Origin: Streptomyces canus
GTDB taxonomy: Bacteria > Actinomycetota > Actinomycetes > Streptomycetales > Streptomycetaceae
Reading direction: 5' to 3'
DNA: 64,000 bases
Assembly: GCF_030816965.1 (NCBI RefSeq)
Contig: NZ_JAUSYQ010000002.1
Location: forward strand, 6,810,001 to 6,874,000
This document shows, piece by piece, positions 46,385-55,430 of the stretch (its first letter is position 1; the number at the start of each line of letters is the position of its first letter). The notes beneath the pieces are model-generated. The model made no database searches, was not told the origin of the DNA, and worked only from the letters and a program-made list of their open reading frames with translations. A program made the position numbers and the translations under genes.

Positions 46385-46642
46385 GCATCCCCCACGGTCC
46401 GCGTGCTCTGGCTGGCCGGGAACGGTAATTCGGGACATTGGGGCGCGTGCAAGTGCGCATGGCGCACCAATGACTACAACTGGCCACACCGGGACCGGGT
46501 ATGACCAGTGGCGACGGAGTCAAGCCGAACATCTGACAAACCACGCTCGTCAACCGGGCGCCGCACGAGTGCCCTCTTGCGGGGGGATGCTGGAGTGGAT
46601 GTGCCGGGCAGCCATGCTCCCGCCGATCAGAAGGAGGCGGGT

Positions 46643-48034
46643 ATGGACCCGAACGAGCACCACGGCGCCGCACCGGAGCCCGAACAGCCTGCAGACCGAT
46701 CCCCGGCGCAGCCGCATGGTGAGGGACGGCCGGACGGAGGTAGCCCGGTCGCAGGCTTGGCGGGCGAGTTCGGCGCGGAGCTGGTGCGGGCCATCCGCGT
46801 GGGCCTGGCCGAGGTGAGCAGCTCCGCCCACGGGGCACGGCGGCCGTCGCAACTGAGCTGGTACGCCTTCGCGACCGAGTACGCGCGGGCCCACTGGCCG
46901 GGCAGGGCGGCGAAGACCCGGGACGAGGTCAGCGACGCGCTGACTGCCGTCACGGTGGCGATGCTGTGGGATCTTCCGGGGCGGCCGGGCGGGCAGCTGC
47001 TGCGCCGCGCTTTGCGGCACTGGGCGTTCGTCGTTCCCGGCCCGGGGCAGGGGGAGATGCCGGTGGAGGACCGGCTGGTGCTGCAGTGGGTGGCGAAGGC
47101 GTCCCGTCCCCTGGTGGATCTGCATGATCCGGTCCTGGCGCGTGATGTGCTGGAGTCGCTGCGCCGAAAGCTCGACGGTGGTGAGGCGGCGGTGGAGACG
47201 ATGCGCCGCAAGCGCAAGGTGATGGTGCACGCGCTCCACTACGCCGTTGAGCGGGGCGAGTTGGGCAGCCACCCGCTGAACAAGGTGCGCTGGCGGTTGC
47301 CCAAGCCGGCGGTCACGGTGGACCCGCGAGTGGTGGCCAACCCCCACCAGGCCCGGGATCTGCTGGATGCCGTCTCCTACGTGGGCGGCTACCAACGGGC
47401 TCGCGGCCGTCGGCTGGTCGGGTTCTTCGCCGGCATGTATTACGCGGGCCTGCGTCCCGAGGAGGCGGTCGCGGTCGCGCTGCCGGACTGCCGCCTGCCC
47501 ACCACCGGTTGGGGCCGGGTGATCCTGCACCGCACCCGGCCGCAGGCGGGCAAACGATGGACCGACAGCGGCGAGAACCACGACGAGCGCGGCCTGAAGA
47601 ACCGTCCGGCGGGAGAGACACGAGTTGTGCCGCTCCCGCCGCATCTGGTGGCCCTGTGGAGAGATCACGTCACCACGTTCGGCACGGCCGACGACGGCCG
47701 GCTGTTCTTCACCGAGCAGGGCCGGGTCATCAGCTACACCACCTACCACCGGGTGTGGCACGAGAGCCGCGCTCTCGCCCTGCCGCCCGCGCTCACCGGC
47801 ACCCCGCTCGCGAAGCGGCCCTATGACCTGAGGCACTCGGCGCTGTCCACCTGGCTGTGCGCGGGTGCCGACCCGGCGGAGGTCGCCGAGCGGGCGGGCA
47901 ACAGCGTCGGGGTTCTGCTGAGCCGGTACGCGCGGTGCCTGTACGACCGGCAGTCCATCAACAACCAGCGCATCGAGGGGTTGTTGAGTGCGTATGACCA
48001 GCCACGCGAGCCCGGCCAGCAGGACGAGGAGTAG
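46643..48034 (+). CDS. int: Tyrosine site-specific recombinase (integrase)
   Basis: A 463-residue phage-type integrase. The N-terminal ~55 residues are disordered (Pro/Gln/Glu), followed by the core-binding domain (SWYAFATEYARAHWPGRAAKTRDEVSDAL) and the catalytic domain. Visible active-site elements are the first Arg in GLRPEEA, a Lys in the beta hairpin (RVILHRTRPQAGKRW region), HxxR-like PYDLRHSAL (where the first His is Tyr), and the Tyr of LLSRYARC. AAGGAGG lies six bases before ATG. Broken relatives lie at 38958 and 55190. It may drive movement of the surrounding island, though it is not next to the tRNA scar. Confidence 0.92.
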   Translation: MDPNEHHGAAPEPEQPADRSPAQPHGEGRPDGGSPVAGLAGEFGAELVRAIRVGLAEVSSSAHGARRPSQLSWYAFATEYARAHWPGRAAKTRDEVSDALTAVTVAMLWDLPGRPGGQLLRRALRHWAFVVPGPGQGEMPVEDRLVLQWVAKASRPLVDLHDPVLARDVLESLRRKLDGGEAAVETMRRKRKVMVHALHYAVERGELGSHPLNKVRWRLPKPAVTVDPRVVANPHQARDLLDAVSYVGGYQRARGRRLVGFFAGMYYAGLRPEEAVAVALPDCRLPTTGWGRVILHRTRPQAGKRWTDSGENHDERGLKNRPAGETRVVPLPPHLVALWRDHVTTFGTADDGRLFFTEQGRVISYTTYHRVWHESRALALPPALTGTPLAKRPYDLRHSALSTWLCAGADPAEVAERAGNSVGVLLSRYARCLYDRQSINNQRIEGLLSAYDQPREPGQQDEE

Positions 48035-48331: not shown

Positions 48332-50293
48332 ATGCATTCCCTGACCGTGCAGGTGGACGGAGATCACCTGGCTCGCCTTGTCCGTAGCCCGCGCGCCGGC
48401 CTGACGGAGCTCATCTGGAACGCCCTCGATGCGGATGCTGACGTCGTCGATGGGGGGCTTGAGTTCAGCACGCTGGGTGCTGTGGAGCGCGTCATCGTAG
48501 TTGATCGCGGTCACGGCATGTCGCCGGACGACGTGCAGCAGGGATTCGGCGCGCTGGGGGGTTCGTGGAAGAGGGCCACCAGGACGACGCGGCAGCAGGG
48601 AAGACGCCTTCACGGAGAACAGGGCAAGGGGCGGTTCGCGGCATTCGGCATCGGTGATGTCGTCGAATGGTGCACGGTGCATGAGGGAGACCCTGCGACC
48701 GAGACGAGGATCCGCGCCGAGCGTCACAACCTGCGCCGCTTCGAGATCACCACCGCTCCGGCCGACGGTGACATCGGCACCAGGGTGTCAGTTGTCTCGG
48801 TCAACGAAACGGCCGGTAAGCAGCTTGAGCAGGACTCGCTGATTGACACCCTCTCGGCAGAATTCGCGATCTGTCTCGAATCCTACCGGCATGTTGAGAT
48901 CTCGTGGCGCGGCCAGAAGCTCAATCCGGCGGCGCTGCAGGTCGAACGCGAGGAATACGACCTGGATGTCGATGGACTGGACGACCGCCCACAACTGGTT
49001 GTCATCGAGTGGCGTCGCCAGGTCGACCGGGCCTTGTATTTGTGCGATGAGGCCGGCATGGCGCTCCACGATATCAAGCCAGGAATCCAGGCCCCCGGGT
49101 TCGATTTCACCGCATATCTCAAGTGGGATGGATTCAGAGGGCATGACGTACTGCTCGCTGAATCCGGCCTGGAACCTATGAGTTCCGTTGTCACGGTGGC
49201 GAAAGAAAAGCTGCGCGAGCACTTCAAACGTCGTAGTGCGGACAAGAGCAGGTCGATCATCAGGGGATGGGTTTCGGAGGGCAGTTACCCGTACAGTGAC
49301 GGATCGCCCTCTGCTGCCGAGAATGCGGAGCGGCAGGTTTTTGACCTCGTCGCATTCAGTGCGTCAAAAGTGATCAACGACGGAGACTTCCGCTCGCGAA
49401 AGTTCACCCTGAGGCTCCTCCGTGAAGCCCTGGCATCCAACCCGGGGAACCTCCACAACGTCTTGAGGAGTGTTCTCGAGCTGTCGGCGGAACGCCTGGC
49501 CGAACTCAGTGAGCTGCTCAACAGAACTACCCTCTCGTCGATCATCGCCACCTCGAAGAAGGTCGGAGACCGGCTCAGCTTCCTGTCCGGTCTCGACACA
49601 ATACTGTTCGACAGCGAGCCGCGGCGCCAGACGCTGGAGCGGCGGCAGCTTCACCGGATCCTGGCCAACGAGACATGGGTATTCGGCGAGGAATACGCCC
49701 TGACTGGTGACGATGAGTCCCTGACCAAGGTGCTCGCGAAATATCTCCACTTTCTTGGCGAGGAGGTTGAGCTCACCGGCCACGCGCAGCCCGTGCTGCG
49801 TCATGACGGCACCAATCCCATTCCCGATCTTGTACTAACTCGCACGTGCGAGATTGCGCAAGACCGAGTCGAGAACATCGTGGTCGAATTGAAGCGGCCG
49901 AGTGAAGTGATCGGTGCGGACGAACTCACCCAGATCGAAAAGTATGCGCTGGCGGTCATGCGCGACGAGCGGTTCAACAAGCCGAACGTCTCGTGGGATT
50001 TCTGGATTATCGGCAATACTTTGGATGAGTTCGCCGAGTCCCGTCGTAACCAGACCGGACTGCCGTTCGGCTATATCCAGCGCACCGACCGCCACCGCGT
50101 ACAAGTGCGTACCTGGTCCGAGGTGATCAATGATGCCCGGCACCGGCTGAAGTTTGTAGAACGCAGCCTCGATTACCGGGCTAATCATGACGACGGGGTG
50201 GAATACCTGCGTTCAAAGCATGCCCAGTTCCTGCCGCCCAGTCTCAGCGACAGTCCCGACCCGTCACCATCCTCGGAAGACGGCCGGGACTGA
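48332..50293 (+). CDS. GHKL ATPase fused to a PD-(D/E)XK (Shedu-like) nuclease domain
   Basis: A 653-residue protein. The N-terminal Hsp90/MORC-type ATPase has N-box ELIWNALDADAD (Asn30), G1 DRGHGM (58-63) and G2 GEQGKGRFAAFGIG (95-108). A middle helical region (about 330-430) follows. The C-terminal domain carries PIPDLVLTR (Asp498) and VVELKRPSE (Glu519, Lys521), the D...E-x-K core of restriction-endonuclease folds, in a context resembling DUF4263 Shedu nucleases (TQIEKYALAVM, WDFWIIG). The combination suggests an ATP-gated defence nuclease. No strong ribosome binding site precedes ATG, so the transcript might be leaderless. The A+T share is higher than in core genes. Its stop is 21 bases from the convergent rpoA stop. 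Confidence 0.75.
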   Translation: MHSLTVQVDGDHLARLVRSPRAGLTELIWNALDADADVVDGGLEFSTLGAVERVIVVDRGHGMSPDDVQQGFGALGGSWKRATRTTRQQGRRLHGEQGKGRFAAFGIGDVVEWCTVHEGDPATETRIRAERHNLRRFEITTAPADGDIGTRVSVVSVNETAGKQLEQDSLIDTLSAEFAICLESYRHVEISWRGQKLNPAALQVEREEYDLDVDGLDDRPQLVVIEWRRQVDRALYLCDEAGMALHDIKPGIQAPGFDFTAYLKWDGFRGHDVLLAESGLEPMSSVVTVAKEKLREHFKRRSADKSRSIIRGWVSEGSYPYSDGSPSAAENAERQVFDLVAFSASKVINDGDFRSRKFTLRLLREALASNPGNLHNVLRSVLELSAERLAELSELLNRTTLSSIIATSKKVGDRLSFLSGLDTILFDSEPRRQTLERRQLHRILANETWVFGEEYALTGDDESLTKVLAKYLHFLGEEVELTGHAQPVLRHDGTNPIPDLVLTRTCEIAQDRVENIVVELKRPSEVIGADELTQIEKYALAVMRDERFNKPNVSWDFWIIGNTLDEFAESRRNQTGLPFGYIQRTDRHRVQVRTWSEVINDARHRLKFVERSLDYRANHDDGVEYLRSKHAQFLPPSLSDSPDPSPSSEDGRD

Positions 50294-50314
50294 TTGACCG
50301 GCGCGGCGCACCGT

Positions 50315-51334
50315 TCAGTACTGCTCGGTCTCGACGAACGTCGTGTCCGCGTCGTTGGTGGCGAAGGTGCCGACCGCGGCCGTGGGGTCGAAGCCCGGCG
50401 GGCTGTCCTTGAGGCCCAGACCCAGGCCAGCCAGCTTCGCCTTGACCTCGTCGATCGACTTCGCACCGAAGTTGCGGATGTCCATCAGGTCCGCCTCGGA
50501 GCGCGCCAAAAGCTCACCCACGGAGTGGACACCTTCGCGCTTGAGGCAGTTGTACGAACGGACCGTGAGTTCGAGCTCCTCGATCGGCAGGGCGAGATCA
50601 GCGGCGAGGGCGGCGTCAGTGGGGGACGGGCCCATGTCGATGCCCTCGGCTTCGATGTTCAGCTCGCGGGCGAGACCGAACAGCTCGACCAGGGTCTTAC
50701 CGGCGGAGGCCATGGCGTCACGGGGACGCATCGCCTGCTTGGTCTCGACGTCGACGATCAGCTTGTCGAAGTCGGTGCGCTGCTCGACACGAGTCGCCTC
50801 GACCTTGTACGTGACCTTCAGAACCGGCGAGTAGATGGAGTCGACCGGGATACGCCCGATCTCCTGGCCCACCTGCTTGTTCTGCACGGCGGAGACGTAA
50901 CCACGGCCACGCTCGACGGTCAGCTCCATCTCCAGCTTGCCCTTGCCGTTGAGCGTGGCGAGGACGAGGCCGGGGTTGTGCACCTCGACACCGGCCGGGG
51001 GCGCGATGTCGGCGGCGGTGACCAGACCCGGGCCCTGCTTGCGCAGGTACATCACGACCGGCTCGTCGTGCTCCGAGGAGACGACCAGCTGCTTGATGTT
51101 GAGGATCAGGTCGGTGACGTCCTCCTTGACGCCCGGCACGGTGGTGAACTCGTGCAGGACACCGTCGATGCGGATGCTGGTGACAGCCGCACCGGGGATC
51201 GACGACAGGAGGGTGCGGCGGAGCGAGTTGCCGAGGGTGTAACCGAAGCCCGGCTCCAGCGGCTCGATCACGAACCGGGAACGGAACTCGTCGACGACCT
51301 CTTCGGTCAACGAGGGACGCTGAGCAATCAGCAC
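50315..51334 (-). CDS. rpoA: RNA polymerase alpha subunit, extra-operonic copy
   Basis: A full-length 339-residue alpha subunit. The NTD opens [43 protein letters not shown], with dimer and beta-binding parts all present. The CTD helix [42 protein letters not shown] is intact. In every Streptomyces known to me rpoA lies between rpsD or rpsK and rplQ; neither is here, so this is likely a second copy. The start is GTG with GGAGG seven bases away. Several residues appear to differ from the usual sequence (Gly in HNPGLVL, Val in REGVHS, Met in DLMDIR, and the C-terminal [12 protein letters not shown]). Expression and assembly into polymerase are unknown. Confidence 0.92.
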
Positions 51335-51464
51335 GTGGTGTTGCCTCCAGTGGTTTGGCGCCCGCTATGTGACGCCGTAGACCTTACGAAGGGTATCGGG
51401 CGATAGGGGTGATGCGGCCTCCGTGGAGGCCGAACCACCCGTCACCCGACCCCGGCGAGGAGGC

Positions 51465-51560
51465 ATCGGGCCTTCGTTCAGGTGCACACCGACGAGGGAC
51501 TCACCGGCGTCGGCGAGACCCGCATGCTGGGCCACACCGACGCGCTGCTCGGATATGCGT
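51465..51560 (+). pseudogene. Enolase-superfamily dehydratase fragment
   Basis: AFVQVHTDEGLTGVGETRMLGHTDALLGY matches the N-terminal capping-domain motif of mandelate racemase/muconate lactonising enzymes such as galactonate dehydratases (V-x-V-x-T-DEGL-x-G-x-GE). Flanking sequence does not continue the family in any frame, so this is a small relic. Confidence 0.45.
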
Positions 51561-51702: not shown

Positions 51703-52272
51703 TCAAGCCGTAACTGGCGTGGGCCGGTATCGCTGGGCTACCGCCCCCGACCGGAACTCATGGCGGTCCACGAGCTCGAGCTGGATGCGCTCGCGCAGAC
51801 CGGCGAGCAAGGTCGGCCCGTGTCCGGCAAGGACCGGCTGAACAACGAACTCGTACTCGTCGATCAGTCCCAGATCTGCCAACGCCAGGGGGAGCGTCAC
51901 GCCACCCACCCACAGGCCCTCGCCTGACCCCTGCTTGAGCCGCTGAACCGCTTGCCCCAAGTCGCCTCGCACCAGGTCGGCATTCCAATCGACCCCGCTC
52001 AGCGTGCTCGACACGACGTACTTCTTCGCCCGGTCGATGGTCTCGGCGAACGGGATCTCCCACTCATCCATCCACTCAGGCCACGTGCCCGTGGCCGGCT
52101 TCCGCCACGCCGACTCCATCATCTCGTAGGTCACCCGGCCGAATAGCAGGGCATCGGCTCGCTCCATCTCCGCGGTCCAGTAGCGCATCGACTCCTCGTC
52201 CGGGGGAAGACCCGCCTCGTGATGGCAGCAGCCGTCGAGCGTGACGTTGATCGAGTATCGAAGTGGTCTCAT
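51703..52272 (-). CDS. Dihydrofolate reductase-like (RibD C-terminal) protein
   Basis: A 189-residue NADPH-dependent reductase-fold protein. LRYSINVTLDGCCHH at the start, DALLFGRVTYEMM in the middle and KQGSGEGLWVGGVTLPLALADLGLIDEYEFVVQPVLAGHGPTLL near the end are classic for the YyaP/RibD_C group. The natural substrate is unknown; these are usually not true folate reductases. Genes of this type are common near mobile DNA in Streptomyces. No operon partner was found. Confidence 0.88.
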   Translation of the reverse strand: MRPLRYSINVTLDGCCHHEAGLPPDEESMRYWTAEMERADALLFGRVTYEMMESAWRKPATGTWPEWMDEWEIPFAETIDRAKKYVVSSTLSGVDWNADLVRGDLGQAVQRLKQGSGEGLWVGGVTLPLALADLGLIDEYEFVVQPVLAGHGPTLLAGLRERIQLELVDRHEFRSGAVAQRYRPTPVTA

Positions 52273-52435: not shown

Positions 52436-53155
52436 TCAGGTTCGCAAGCAATCGCAGCCTGGGCGGCAGCCACACGCACCGTCCGCCTCAGTCTCGATGG
52501 CCGGGGCCGCCACCTTGGAGGGCGTGCAGCAGCCCTTGCCCTGCCAGGCGTCGCGGCCTTCCTTTGTGGCAACGGCGGCGATGGCGAGGGCGGCGATGGG
52601 ATCGGCCCACGACCAGCCGAGGGTGGCGTTGAGGACCAGGCCGACCAGGAGCACTGCCGAGAGGTACGTGCACAGCAGGGTCTGCTTGGAGTCGGCGACC
52701 GCGCTGGCGGAGCCGAGCTCACGGCCCGCGCGGCGTTGGGCTGCGGACAGGAACGGCATGACCGCCAGGGAGAGAGCGGCGAGCACGATGCCGGGGATGG
52801 AGCTTTCCGCCTCCCCCGTGCCGATCAGTGCGCGGGCGGCGTCGACCGTGATGTAGGCGGCGAGTGCAAAGAACGACAGCGCGATGATCCGCAGCGTCGT
52901 CTTCTCCCGTGCCTCGCGCACGGCATGCTCACGGGCGGAGAACTGCCAGGCCACCGCAGCGGCGGAGGAGACCTCGATGACGGAGTCCAGGCCGAAGCCG
53001 ATCAGGGCGGTGGACGAGGCGAGAGTGCCGGCGGTGATGGCGACGATCGCTTCGATGACGTTGTAGGTGATGGTCGCCGTGACCAGCAGACGTATCCGAT
53101 GGGCGAGTTCGTCTCGGCGGGCTGCGGAGGGGCCGAGGGATATTGCGGTCATCAG
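52436..53155 (-). CDS. CDF-type cation efflux protein
   Basis: A 239-residue membrane protein with six hydrophobic helices of the cation-diffusion-facilitator fold (GFGLDSVIEVSSAAAVAWQ in helix 2, then SKQTLLCTYLSAVLLVGLVLN). A second metal site is suggested by the Cys-rich tail (GKGCCTPSKVAAP, then CGCRPGCDCL), which has six Cys in 34 residues. It should export a soft metal such as Cd, Zn or Pb. ATG overlaps the stop of the ArsR gene (ATGA), so the regulator and pump are coupled. Confidence 0.87.
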   Translation of the reverse strand: MMTAISLGPSAARRDELAHRIRLLVTATITYNVIEAIVAITAGTLASSTALIGFGLDSVIEVSSAAAVAWQFSAREHAVREAREKTTLRIIALSFFALAAYITVDAARALIGTGEAESSIPGIVLAALSLAVMPFLSAAQRRAGRELGSASAVADSKQTLLCTYLSAVLLVGLVLNATLGWSWADPIAALAIAAVATKEGRDAWQGKGCCTPSKVAAPAIETEADGACGCRPGCDCLRT

Positions 53156-53502
53156 CAGCATCCCTTGTCGTCGGCGTCGGCGCAGGTGCGGTCGGTCTCC
53201 ACGGCCACCACTGCGGCGCGCAGGTCGTCCAGCGCGTGACCGAGGCGCTCGTCCGCCAGTTCGTAGCGGGTGCGGCGGCCGTCGGGCAGTGTGACGACCA
53301 GGCCGCAGTCGCGCAGGCAGGCGAGGTGGTTGGAGAGCCGGGTGCGCGAGATGCCGAGCGCGTCGGCGAGATCGGCGGGGTAGGCCGGGGCTTCGCGCAG
53401 CGCGAGCAGGATGCGGCAGCGGATCGGGTCGGCGAGCGCGCGGCCGAAACGGGCGAGCACCTCGATGTCGGAGGCAACAGTCAGCACAGCACGACAGTAC
53501 AT
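53152..53502 (-). CDS. ArsR/SmtB metal sensor repressor (CmtR-like)
   Basis: A 116-residue winged-helix repressor (ALADPIRCRILLALREAPAYPADLADALGISRTRLSNHLACLRDCGLVV). The C-x3-C in HLACLRDCGL matches the alpha-4R site of CmtR cadmium/lead sensors, and the C-terminal Cys cluster (TCADADDKGCC) could supply the third ligand. It is expected to bind the palindrome just upstream and release it with metal, inducing itself and the CDF pump. The start is ATG with no visible ribosome binding site; a leaderless transcript or a GTG at about 53487 is possible. Confidence 0.88.
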   Translation of the reverse strand: MYCRAVLTVASDIEVLARFGRALADPIRCRILLALREAPAYPADLADALGISRTRLSNHLACLRDCGLVVTLPDGRRTRYELADERLGHALDDLRAAVVAVETDRTCADADDKGCC

Positions 53503-53506
53503 AGAA

Positions 53507-53520
53507 TCCTGAATTCAGGA
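53507..53520. promoter_or_regulatory. Palindromic operator before the metal repressor gene
   Basis: The perfect 14-bp palindrome TCCTGAATTCAGGA ends 5 bases before the ArsR start. Its position suits autorepression. Confidence 0.7.
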
Positions 53521-53810
53521 AAGCGTGGATCATTGGCTGGAATCCGGCCCTACGTGCTCTCCCGGAACGCTCGCGCGCCGGGGCGAGCCCGCCGTGACCG
53601 AGCCCAAAAGCGCCGACGGAGTATGTGATACGCCATCCTCGGCCCGGGCAGGCTCGTGCAGTTCCTTCGGCAGCCCAGGGCGCTCTGAAGCTGCCCAGGG
53701 GGCGGCAGGCATGTTCGCTCGCCCGGATGATCTTTCCGGTGAACGCTTCGAGGATGCCGGCCATGTGATAGCTCTGAGCCGGTGAAATGGGTCTATGCGC
53801 GGGTGGGCCA
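53521..53810. other. Gene-free stretch before the nuclease-like gene
   Basis: Both strands have open frames, but none is recognisable. No repeat or terminator was seen. Confidence 0.35.
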
Positions 53811-55046
53811 ATGTCGTTGACGTCTCAGCTGCGTGACGGGGAACTGAGCAAGTGGTGTGCCCGCCGGTTCACCGGTTCGGCGGAGGTTGTCGGCCGGTTG
53901 GCCGGCGCCACCCGCGGCCGACGGCCCGTGTATCCGAGCGGGCAGGTCGACGGACGGCACTGGGCTTCGATCGGCGGCGCGTTCGGGGCCCGCCTGGCCG
54001 CGCTCGTGCAGCCCGCACCGCCGTACTACGCGCTGCACGGCCTGGTGGCCGCCAGGCTGGTGAGCCGTGAATGGGCCAACGAGCAGGCCGCGCTCTATCC
54101 GACCCACGCCGACCTCGGCGAGCGGGAACGTGCCAGAGCACTCGACCTGCGCCCGACCATGGTGGGGTGGCTGGACCTTTGCCCCCTGGCCCGGTCGGCG
54201 CCGTCACGGCACAGCTCCGACACGGAGCGCGCCGACTTCGTCAACAGCATCGTGAACGCCCCTCGCAGCGAGCTCGACAGCATCGTCAACAGCATCATGC
54301 GGGGGCCGAACTCCCAGGCTGACCGGTACTGGCCGGCCCAGCCCGTGCTGGCAGACCTGTTCACCCGTACCCGTGCCTACTTCGCCCAGCATGCCCCTCC
54401 GGGGCACCTCGGCACCCGCGGTGCCGAGGCCGGCCTCGCCCGTGTCTGCTGGCTGCTGGACATGTTCGAGGACGTCTACCGCTCCGGCACCATCCACGAG
54501 TCGATGCACCAAGTCTTCCGCCCACGGGTCCCGACCGTGGAGACGATGCGTGCGGCCGCGAACGAAGCGGTCGTGGACGAACTGGCACTTCTGGCACGGC
54601 AGACAGAGGTCCATGGCGCCCTGGCCGAGCTTCGCCGACTGGCAGGTGATCCACCCGAGGGCCGGCCACTGGGCATCGCCGGGCCCGTTTTCGTCAATCA
54701 CTGGGCCGACGGCGACCTGCTGATATCCGGCCCGACCGGCGCCACGCTGATCGACGTCAAAACGGTGGCCAAGGTCGACAAACAGGACCGCTCCGTACGC
54801 TGGCTGTGGCAGCTGATCGCCTATGCCTGGCTGGACATCGCCGACCGCTACCGCATCCGCGACGTCGGGCTGTACCTCGCCCGGCACGGTGTACTCGTCA
54901 CCTGGAGCCTGGACTCCCTGGCCGGCACGCTGCTACGCGGCGGCGACCAGGACGAGGCGCGCGCCGAGTTCCGGGCGCTGGCCGAACGGGTGCTCACCAA
55001 AGAAGGAGCGCGGCTGCCTAGCGCAGACGCGGACCTCCTGCGCTAG
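53811..55046 (+). CDS. PD-(D/E)XK-like hypothetical protein
   Basis: A protein of about 411 residues. The N-terminal two thirds are helical and unassigned (LRDGELSKWCARRFTGSAEVVGRLAG, then SDTERADFVNSIVNAPRSELDSIV). The C-terminal part contains ADGDLLIS (Asp302) and LIDVKTVAK (Asp315, Lys317), followed by LWQLIAYAWLDIADRY. This is the D...D-x-K plus Q-x3-Y pattern of Cas4/RecB-type nucleases. ATG at 53811 or 53787 could be the start; neither has a strong ribosome binding site. It lies just upstream of an integrase fragment and may be cargo of the same element type. Confidence 0.65.
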   Translation: MSLTSQLRDGELSKWCARRFTGSAEVVGRLAGATRGRRPVYPSGQVDGRHWASIGGAFGARLAALVQPAPPYYALHGLVAARLVSREWANEQAALYPTHADLGERERARALDLRPTMVGWLDLCPLARSAPSRHSSDTERADFVNSIVNAPRSELDSIVNSIMRGPNSQADRYWPAQPVLADLFTRTRAYFAQHAPPGHLGTRGAEAGLARVCWLLDMFEDVYRSGTIHESMHQVFRPRVPTVETMRAAANEAVVDELALLARQTEVHGALAELRRLAGDPPEGRPLGIAGPVFVNHWADGDLLISGPTGATLIDVKTVAKVDKQDRSVRWLWQLIAYAWLDIADRYRIRDVGLYLARHGVLVTWSLDSLAGTLLRGGDQDEARAEFRALAERVLTKEGARLPSADADLLR

Positions 55047-55189: not shown

Positions 55190-55430
55190 GTTCGGTGCAG
55201 AGTTGGTGCGGGCTATGCGCGCGGGCCTGGCCCAGGCGTGCTACACCGCCTACGGCCCTCGGGGTCTGTCTCAGCTGAGCCGGTACGCCTTTGCGGCCGA
55301 GTACGCGCGGGCGCACTGGTCCGGTAGGGCGGCGAAGACCCGTGACGAGGTCAGCGACGCGCTGACAGCGATCAGCCTGGCGATGCACGGAGATCCGCCG
55401 CAGCAGCACGGCCTTGGTCTCTCGGAGTCA
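55190..55430 (+). pseudogene. N-terminal fragment of the same integrase family
   Basis: FGAELVRAMRAGLAQACYTAYGPRGLSQLSRYAFAAEYARAHWSGRAAKTRDEVSDALTAISLAMHGDPP matches residues ~50-115 of the intact integrase at 46643 almost position for position. The similarity stops after about 75 residues and the rest of the recombinase is missing. Confidence 0.85.

Follow-up and report, generated by a model that had tools for sequence, protein, structure and literature searches.

Why does Streptomyces canus possess a full-length gene for the alpha subunit of RNA polymerase (rpoA) outside its ribosomal operon, and could the product of this gene serve its polymerase? The gene lies within a stretch of 64,000 nucleotides (the window), for which an earlier note had proposed that an intact rpoA in a mobile island might alter promoter use, or might yield an RNA polymerase that is a different target for phage or antibiotics. 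The features that bear on these proposals are listed in Table 1.

The second rpoA gene and its canonical counterpart

The gene proved to be intact and to lie away from the ribosomal operon: instead of rpsK and rplQ, its flanks are a GHKL-ATPase gene on one side and, upstream, a gene for a RibD_C-type reductase, both recognized by Pfam and both as the earlier note had described them; the enolase fragment that the note also named is a candidate from reading by eye. All three Pfam alpha domains of its product (N-terminal dimerisation, insert, C-terminal) score above cut-off, and the NCBIfam alpha equivalog NF003514 matches it with 655.8 bits (cut-off 434). A plus-strand ORF (50294-51406, 370 aa) was taken to be an antisense shadow of rpoA and not a gene.

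The genome of S. canus (10.66 Mb, two contigs) contains one other rpoA match, the canonical gene (C2:6147706-6148728), so the window gene is a second rpoA, as the earlier note had supposed. The canonical gene order is rpsM-rpsK-rpoA-rplQ (neighbours named from their translations); the expected rpsK and rplQ do flank it, but no rpsD is present between rpsK and rpoA. For rpoB and rpoC, by domain, the genome has one gene each. The two alpha proteins are 96% identical, with seven changes between residues 2 and 311 (D122G, D228E, I269V, V276L, L284M, M304L and A307G) and tails that diverge past approximately residue 320, which agrees with the claim that several positions depart from the usual Streptomyces alpha. 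Outside the C-terminal domain (CTD) and the tail, D122G and D228E are the only changes. Due to the existence of a solved chain nearly identical to Streptomyces alpha in length and score (7vpd and others), structural mapping of the substitutions is possible.

Table 1. Features of the window that concern the second rpoA gene and its setting (positions counted within the window)
Feature	Position	Strand	Evidence and remarks
Integrase-like ORF (context)	46508..48034	plus	Plasmid protein matches
GHKL-ATPase gene (context)	48332..50293	plus	HATPase_c_3; convergent with rpoA, its end 21 nt from the rpoA stop
Largest extent aligning with second copies at unrelated loci (~1.19 kb)	50295..51480	minus	blastn
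Second rpoA, 339 aa	50315..51334	minus	GTG start, TGA stop; alpha N-terminal domain (NTD) and CTD intact
GGAGG ribosome-binding site	51344..51348	minus
Leader hairpin GGCGUC-ACAUAGCG-GGCGCC	51357..51376	minus	Covariation; found before canonical rpoA too
TACCCT, -10-like box	51390..51395	minus	Conserved in 43 aligned GTG-type upstream regions; putative promoter
RibD_C-type reductase, upstream neighbour (context)	51703..52272	minus	Pfam
Cation-efflux (CDF) ORF (context)	52436..53764	minus	Pfam
ArsR-type regulator ORF	53152-53502		Overlaps the upstream part of the CDF ORF
Truncated piece of the integrase-like gene	55190..55412	plus	79% nucleotide identity to 46768-46990

Genomic distribution and setting of second rpoA genes

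Second rpoA genes are not peculiar to the S. canus genome: many large-genome Streptomyces carry an intact, free-standing second rpoA, be it on an island, a chromosome arm or a plasmid. Of 295 evenly drawn Streptomyces genomes (that of the window included), 52 possess a second rpoA; the 51 besides that of the window have 55 second copies, four genomes having two. Carriers were drawn from 54 multi-match genomes, of which G084, G278 and G294 were not counted because their matches are partial or split; the fragmentary or multi-match genomes G021, G032, G097, G141, G145, G197 and G280 were likewise not counted as carriers. An order-wide draw that overlaps this set gave, from match rows only, a full-length second match in 12 of 106 Streptomyces genomes and in none of 13 genomes of other genera.

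Carriers have a median genome size of 9.95 Mb, versus 8.2 Mb in 231 non-carriers. Carriage rises from 2/100 genomes below 8 Mb to 7/81 (8-9 Mb), 17/58 (9-10 Mb) and 26/44 (10 Mb or more), in counts that ignore the kinship of genomes and leave out 12 genomes (the ten uncounted rows, plus G050 and G075, which have no match at the limit used). On contigs longer than 7 Mb, 15 of 27 second copies fall within the terminal 15% at one end or the other (binomial p 0.005); this count omits four genomes with an off-centre canonical rpoA, and with these included a uniformity test gives p 0.03. Genome G253 has two identical second copies (L091 and L092), each approximately 0.6 Mb from one chromosome end, a pair that probably sits in long terminal inverted repeats.

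Thirty-four records of a plasmid collection match rpoA, 21 of them from Streptomyces, and none of the seven plasmid loci viewed is beside ribosomal-protein genes (one has only 0.7 kb visible on one side). The rpoA of a Tsukamurella 'plasmid' was dropped, being inside a full ribosomal operon and looking like a canonical gene, and a Nonomuraea 'plasmid' record of 11.85 Mb was not counted because it is chromosome-sized. On the linear plasmids L224 and L008, the second rpoA comes after a single-stranded-DNA-binding-protein gene and a small ORF, and in L224 it is approximately 1.2 kb from a terminal-protein gene. A single phage record has an rpoA-like stretch (65.8% identity over 57% of the query); viral contigs searched with the leader pattern (below) gave no match.

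The mobile island of the earlier note is partly borne out. In its favour are the integrase-like ORF, the plasmid relatives of this ORF and its partial second copy, which together fall short of proof. The ORF has no match in Pfam or NCBIfam; its best plasmid relative (45.8% identity) is annotated as a site-specific integrase, a label carried by two of the six matches. The integrase-like gene and its truncated piece are in direct orientation 8.4 kb apart, bracketing the island genes as if the gene had been inserted or rearranged twice. The same integrase and its preceding DNA (86-92% nucleotide similarity) recur at locus L063, 6.6-9 kb downstream of a second rpoA whose alpha is 98.5% identical to that of the window; thus, at least one further genome has part of the window setting near its second rpoA. 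DNA 87% similar to the CDF/ArsR region sits directly downstream of the second rpoA of another locus, L067. A tRNA scan of the window found none. Further, a 419-aa ORF of the window (53787-55046) weakly matches, in PADLOC, a DRT protein that bears a PD-DExK domain (E 2.4e-4), and is a possible candidate nuclease of the same island; the GHKL-ATPase ORF has a weak, below-cut-off NCBIfam match to BbrUII/HgiDII restriction enzymes.

No constant neighbour gene was identified among 59 second-copy loci, the commonest non-rpoA cluster being present in 10 of them at varying distance. A small divergent ORF, tudor-like by eye and without an NCBIfam match, is located upstream of the second rpoA in 10 of the 59 loci (tblastn), in nine of them at 0.2-0.5 kb (L066, L088, L093, L097, L098, L101, L107, L108 and L112) and in L069 at 3.7 kb.

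Inconstant neighbours, the arm bias and carriage that increases with genome size, as it does for many accessory genes, would all suit a passenger, carried about by islands, plasmids and chromosome arms without benefit to the host, that stays clean mainly because a broken alpha would poison the polymerase and gene conversion repairs the copy. We consider such a passenger unlikely, because a silent gene would need no conserved promoter-like box, hairpin or ribosome-binding site, and because dN/dS is low even in little-converted copies such as that of the window.

The leader and probable gene conversion

In 58 comparisons with other second-copy loci, the alignable unit extends 14-146 nt upstream of the start codon and at most 22 nt past the stop codon. 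Directly ahead of the start codon, conservation over 60 nt amounts to 90-94% among 43 GTG-type copies with non-alignable flanks; this leader contains the TACCCT box, the hairpin and CTGGAGGCAAYACC. The leader of the window gene is nearest to those of second copies L094 and L106 (95% over 58 nt). Of 56 genome copies, 45 (that of the window among them) begin with GTG, and the three plasmid copies compared begin with ATG. The leader pattern was found in 83 stretches of a species collection; among the 80 listed, all titles are Streptomyces or 'Actinobacteria bacterium OV320', and the pattern runs into rpoA in all 62 readable cases, the other 18 being too short downstream. A separate leader is not indispensable, since those of second copies L073 and L107 resemble canonical leaders.

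With seven pairs closing a loop of 8 nt, the hairpin is located ahead of both canonical and second copies. Across 61 distinct sequences, pairing holds in 92.3% of cells, and both sides are changed in 28 cells, a number that none of 500 shuffles reached (mean 10.8); sliding the partners out of register destroyed the pairing signal. The test is biased towards the fixed motif, since 45 leaders missing the motif were left out (21 compared copies and 24 pattern-search matches, in overlapping sets). Further pair types did not exceed the number in shuffles, and 27 of the 61 sequences cannot form the outermost pair. One U-G pair is invariant in all 61, which speaks for an RNA element over a DNA palindrome. 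Folding energy gave no comparable signal (window leader z 0.35, no better than shuffles; canonical leader z -1.13, slightly better), so the hairpin rests on covariation. Rfam recognized no leader family in the window, its one match being under the gathering score (RF01785, E 0.1). In the S. canus genome the mismatch-free element is present at two places only, both before rpoA, and at three mismatches its frequency does not exceed that of the control. The motif search matched two of 13 genomes of other genera, and the rest show similar leaders by eye. The same hairpin precedes canonical Streptomyces rpoA, for example upstream of 9707 in L005, and by eye that of related genera (L209-L221). A hairpin common to both rpoA genes suggests shared control, perhaps by feedback on alpha synthesis.

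A quick tree, in which L116 occupied a false long branch, served as a first hint only. Pairs were formed from the 28 second copies for which the set compared contained the canonical gene of the same genome. Over nucleotides 1-930, the nearest of 26 canonical genes was the copy's own in 19 of the 28; in 20, the own canonical gene gave the longest identical run of all (up to 770 nt); and over nucleotides 361-720 the own canonical gene was among the nearest of all sequences, again in 20. For the leader, other second copies were the closest sequences in 25 of the 28. Bodies near the own canonical gene, together with leaders near other second copies, imply gene conversion, and the simplest account would be one old mobile rpoA family, the bodies of which have been rewritten by the resident canonical gene. 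Position by position, in 25 of the 28 pairs (L113, L115 and L117 left out), excess identity to the own canonical gene is slight over the initial 90 nt, becomes clear over nucleotides 90-900 and is not significant over nucleotides 900-930; an ungapped comparison of the 60 nt upstream of the start found no excess in these pairs. Conversion tracts necessarily stop where homology stops, which cautions against functional over-reading of the mosaic.

Many recent, independent duplications of each host's rpoA would also leave bodies closest to the own canonical gene, as is the case in many genomes. Such an origin is highly improbable, because the leader, the GTG start, I269V and the short post-stop stretch are common to second copies across genomes and set them apart from the canonical genes in the comparison. 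For the window copy, the own canonical gene ranks only 11 of 26, and the longest identical run with it is 187 nt versus 217 nt with another; the lack of clear conversion suggests that the window rpoA arrived recently and was newly acquired.

Duplicate rpoA genes are already known; added here are a second rpoA that is mobile, bears its own leader and evolves in concert with the gene of its host. In the available text of Mukhamedyarov et al. 2011 (PMC3294249), S. avermitilis MA-4680 is reported to have two rpoA genes, the duplication being called fairly recent. That case is alike in being a Streptomyces with a second rpoA away from the ribosomal operon, but it concerns one genome, for which the same text describes no leader, mobility, plasmid or conversion pattern, and it is compared here by description only. 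The Francisella alpha1 and alpha2 proteins are likewise two different alphas in one cell, both found in RNA polymerase there, but according to the portion of PMC3294249 at hand they form a heterodimer and have diverged at their dimer and beta/beta' contacts; such divergence is not found in the window alpha, the NTD of which differs at two residues and the gene of which is mobile. The rpoB2 genes of Nonomuraea and other rare actinomycetes are duplicate core polymerase genes of antibiotic producers too, but they carry rifampicin-resistance changes (PMC13118837, as far as its accessible text goes), whereas the second rpoA has no known drug-linked change. The rpoA2 of PMC8046335, in its available part, is that of Psychromonas.

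Pairs of tuf genes are old, vertically inherited paralogues. They resemble the present case in that conversion keeps duplicate core genes similar (cited in the accessible part of PMC8046335); in Streptomyces, by contrast, the canonical gene has a mobile partner with a leader that conversion mostly spares. In the literature searched, which covered few subscription papers and no preprints, no account of a mobile, plasmid-borne or gene-converting Streptomyces rpoA was recognised.

Conservation and possible roles of the second alpha

Almost all second copies (58 of 59) are full length, with 335-348 aa; the exception, L117 (314 aa), is cut beyond the CTD and still holds this domain. Compared with its own canonical gene, the window rpoA has dN 0.009 and dS 0.18 in the NTD (dN/dS 0.05), and dN 0.038 and dS 0.37 in the CTD (dN/dS 0.10). 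Summed over 27 pairs (L117 left out), dN/dS is 0.08 in the NTD and 0.11 in the CTD. Between canonical genes NTD dN is already 0.005, probably due to serine-codon switches, so that dN of the second copies is, if anything, overstated. Judged by these ratios, purifying selection on the second copies is strong.

Residues R259, N262, K265, N288, K292, S293 and E296, which we take to be equivalents in Streptomyces numbering of the DNA-contact residues of E. coli, are invariant in all 59 second copies; the earlier note, too, had the window alpha keeping its DNA-contact helix. The alpha-CTD residues placed in the SARP interface by the available text of PMC10936776 (E252, R259, K265, R266, R287 and K292) are likewise unchanged in all 59. 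Altered promoter use by the second alpha, the role first suggested for it, is therefore without support at these residues.

Frequent changes are found elsewhere, namely I269V in 47 of the 59 second copies, A307G in 31, V276L in 27 and E255D in 14, all absent from 49 canonical sequences; E255 is presumably equivalent to the 261 determinant of E. coli. Second copies are also far more varied, with 58 distinct alpha proteins among 59 versus three among 49 canonical loci, the latter being top-ranked hits and so biased towards sameness. These changes, with E255D in some copies and the variable tail, might denote a specialised alpha that forms a minority polymerase with other promoter or activator preferences. 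This is doubtful in view of the invariant contact residues, the two substitutions that make up all change in the NTD of the window alpha, and the conservative nature of the commonest changes (I269V, A307G and V276L); conversion tracts, moreover, extend into the CTD also.

Escape from phage or antibiotics as a role of the second alpha lacks support at the residue level, no link to antibiotics emerged from the analyses made, and to our knowledge alpha is no established drug target. A decoy or bypass alpha resisting a phage protein or toxin aimed at the canonical alpha is conceivable, since phage proteins that attack alpha are known, such as Rac of phage LUZ19, which brings about cleavage of the linker (PMC7552054, in its available part), and since some copies are near possible defence genes (L008). 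We regard it as improbable: no target-like residue is changed in all copies, gene contexts vary, and the ten neighbours in the window give one weak restriction-enzyme and one weak DRT match.

We assign a probability of roughly one half to the reading that the window gene is a member of a mobile, stand-alone Streptomyces rpoA family that encodes a functional extra alpha subunit. The second rpoA would have a promoter of its own and be transcribed independently of the ribosomal operon, and its product would dimerise with itself or with the canonical alpha and enter ordinary RNA polymerase. The cell would thereby gain a supply of alpha uncoupled from the control of ribosomal-protein genes, while gene conversion would keep the body matched to the resident polymerase and the leader would usually remain of the second type. 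It is established knowledge, as summarised in the text available from PMC3294249, that RNA polymerase assembly begins with alpha dimerisation, so an additional supply of alpha might count at times when ribosomal-protein genes are down-regulated; that shut-down of the ribosomal operon creates a need for it is speculation. Conversion and slow change could equally fit a gene kept solely because a broken alpha is harmful.

More tentatively, a core RNA polymerase subunit may have turned into a mobile accessory unit, equipped with its own promoter and a regulatory leader, that moves on linear plasmids and islands and is fitted to each host by conversion; hosts with large genomes might thus gain a separately controlled polymerase of mixed alphas, and the hairpin might be an undescribed RNA element of both genes. 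Core RNA polymerase genes serve as vertical markers, and trees built on them could be misled by a mobile, converting second rpoA, which approximately one in six of the sampled Streptomyces genomes carries. The second gene may offer antibiotic-producing hosts a second handle on transcription, and it allows tests of the way in which a core subunit gained by horizontal transfer is kept matched to the polymerase already present. Compensatory changes preserve the leader hairpin ahead of canonical and second genes alike, which suggests that alpha synthesis is subject to an unstudied kind of control.

As a separate observation, residues 238-308 of the window alpha, in the CTD (gene 50318-51334), weakly match positions 787-857 of the profile of the BREX kinase PglW (NF033442; E 1.2e-4, far under the cut-off), and an alpha-CTD-like domain may be present in PglW.
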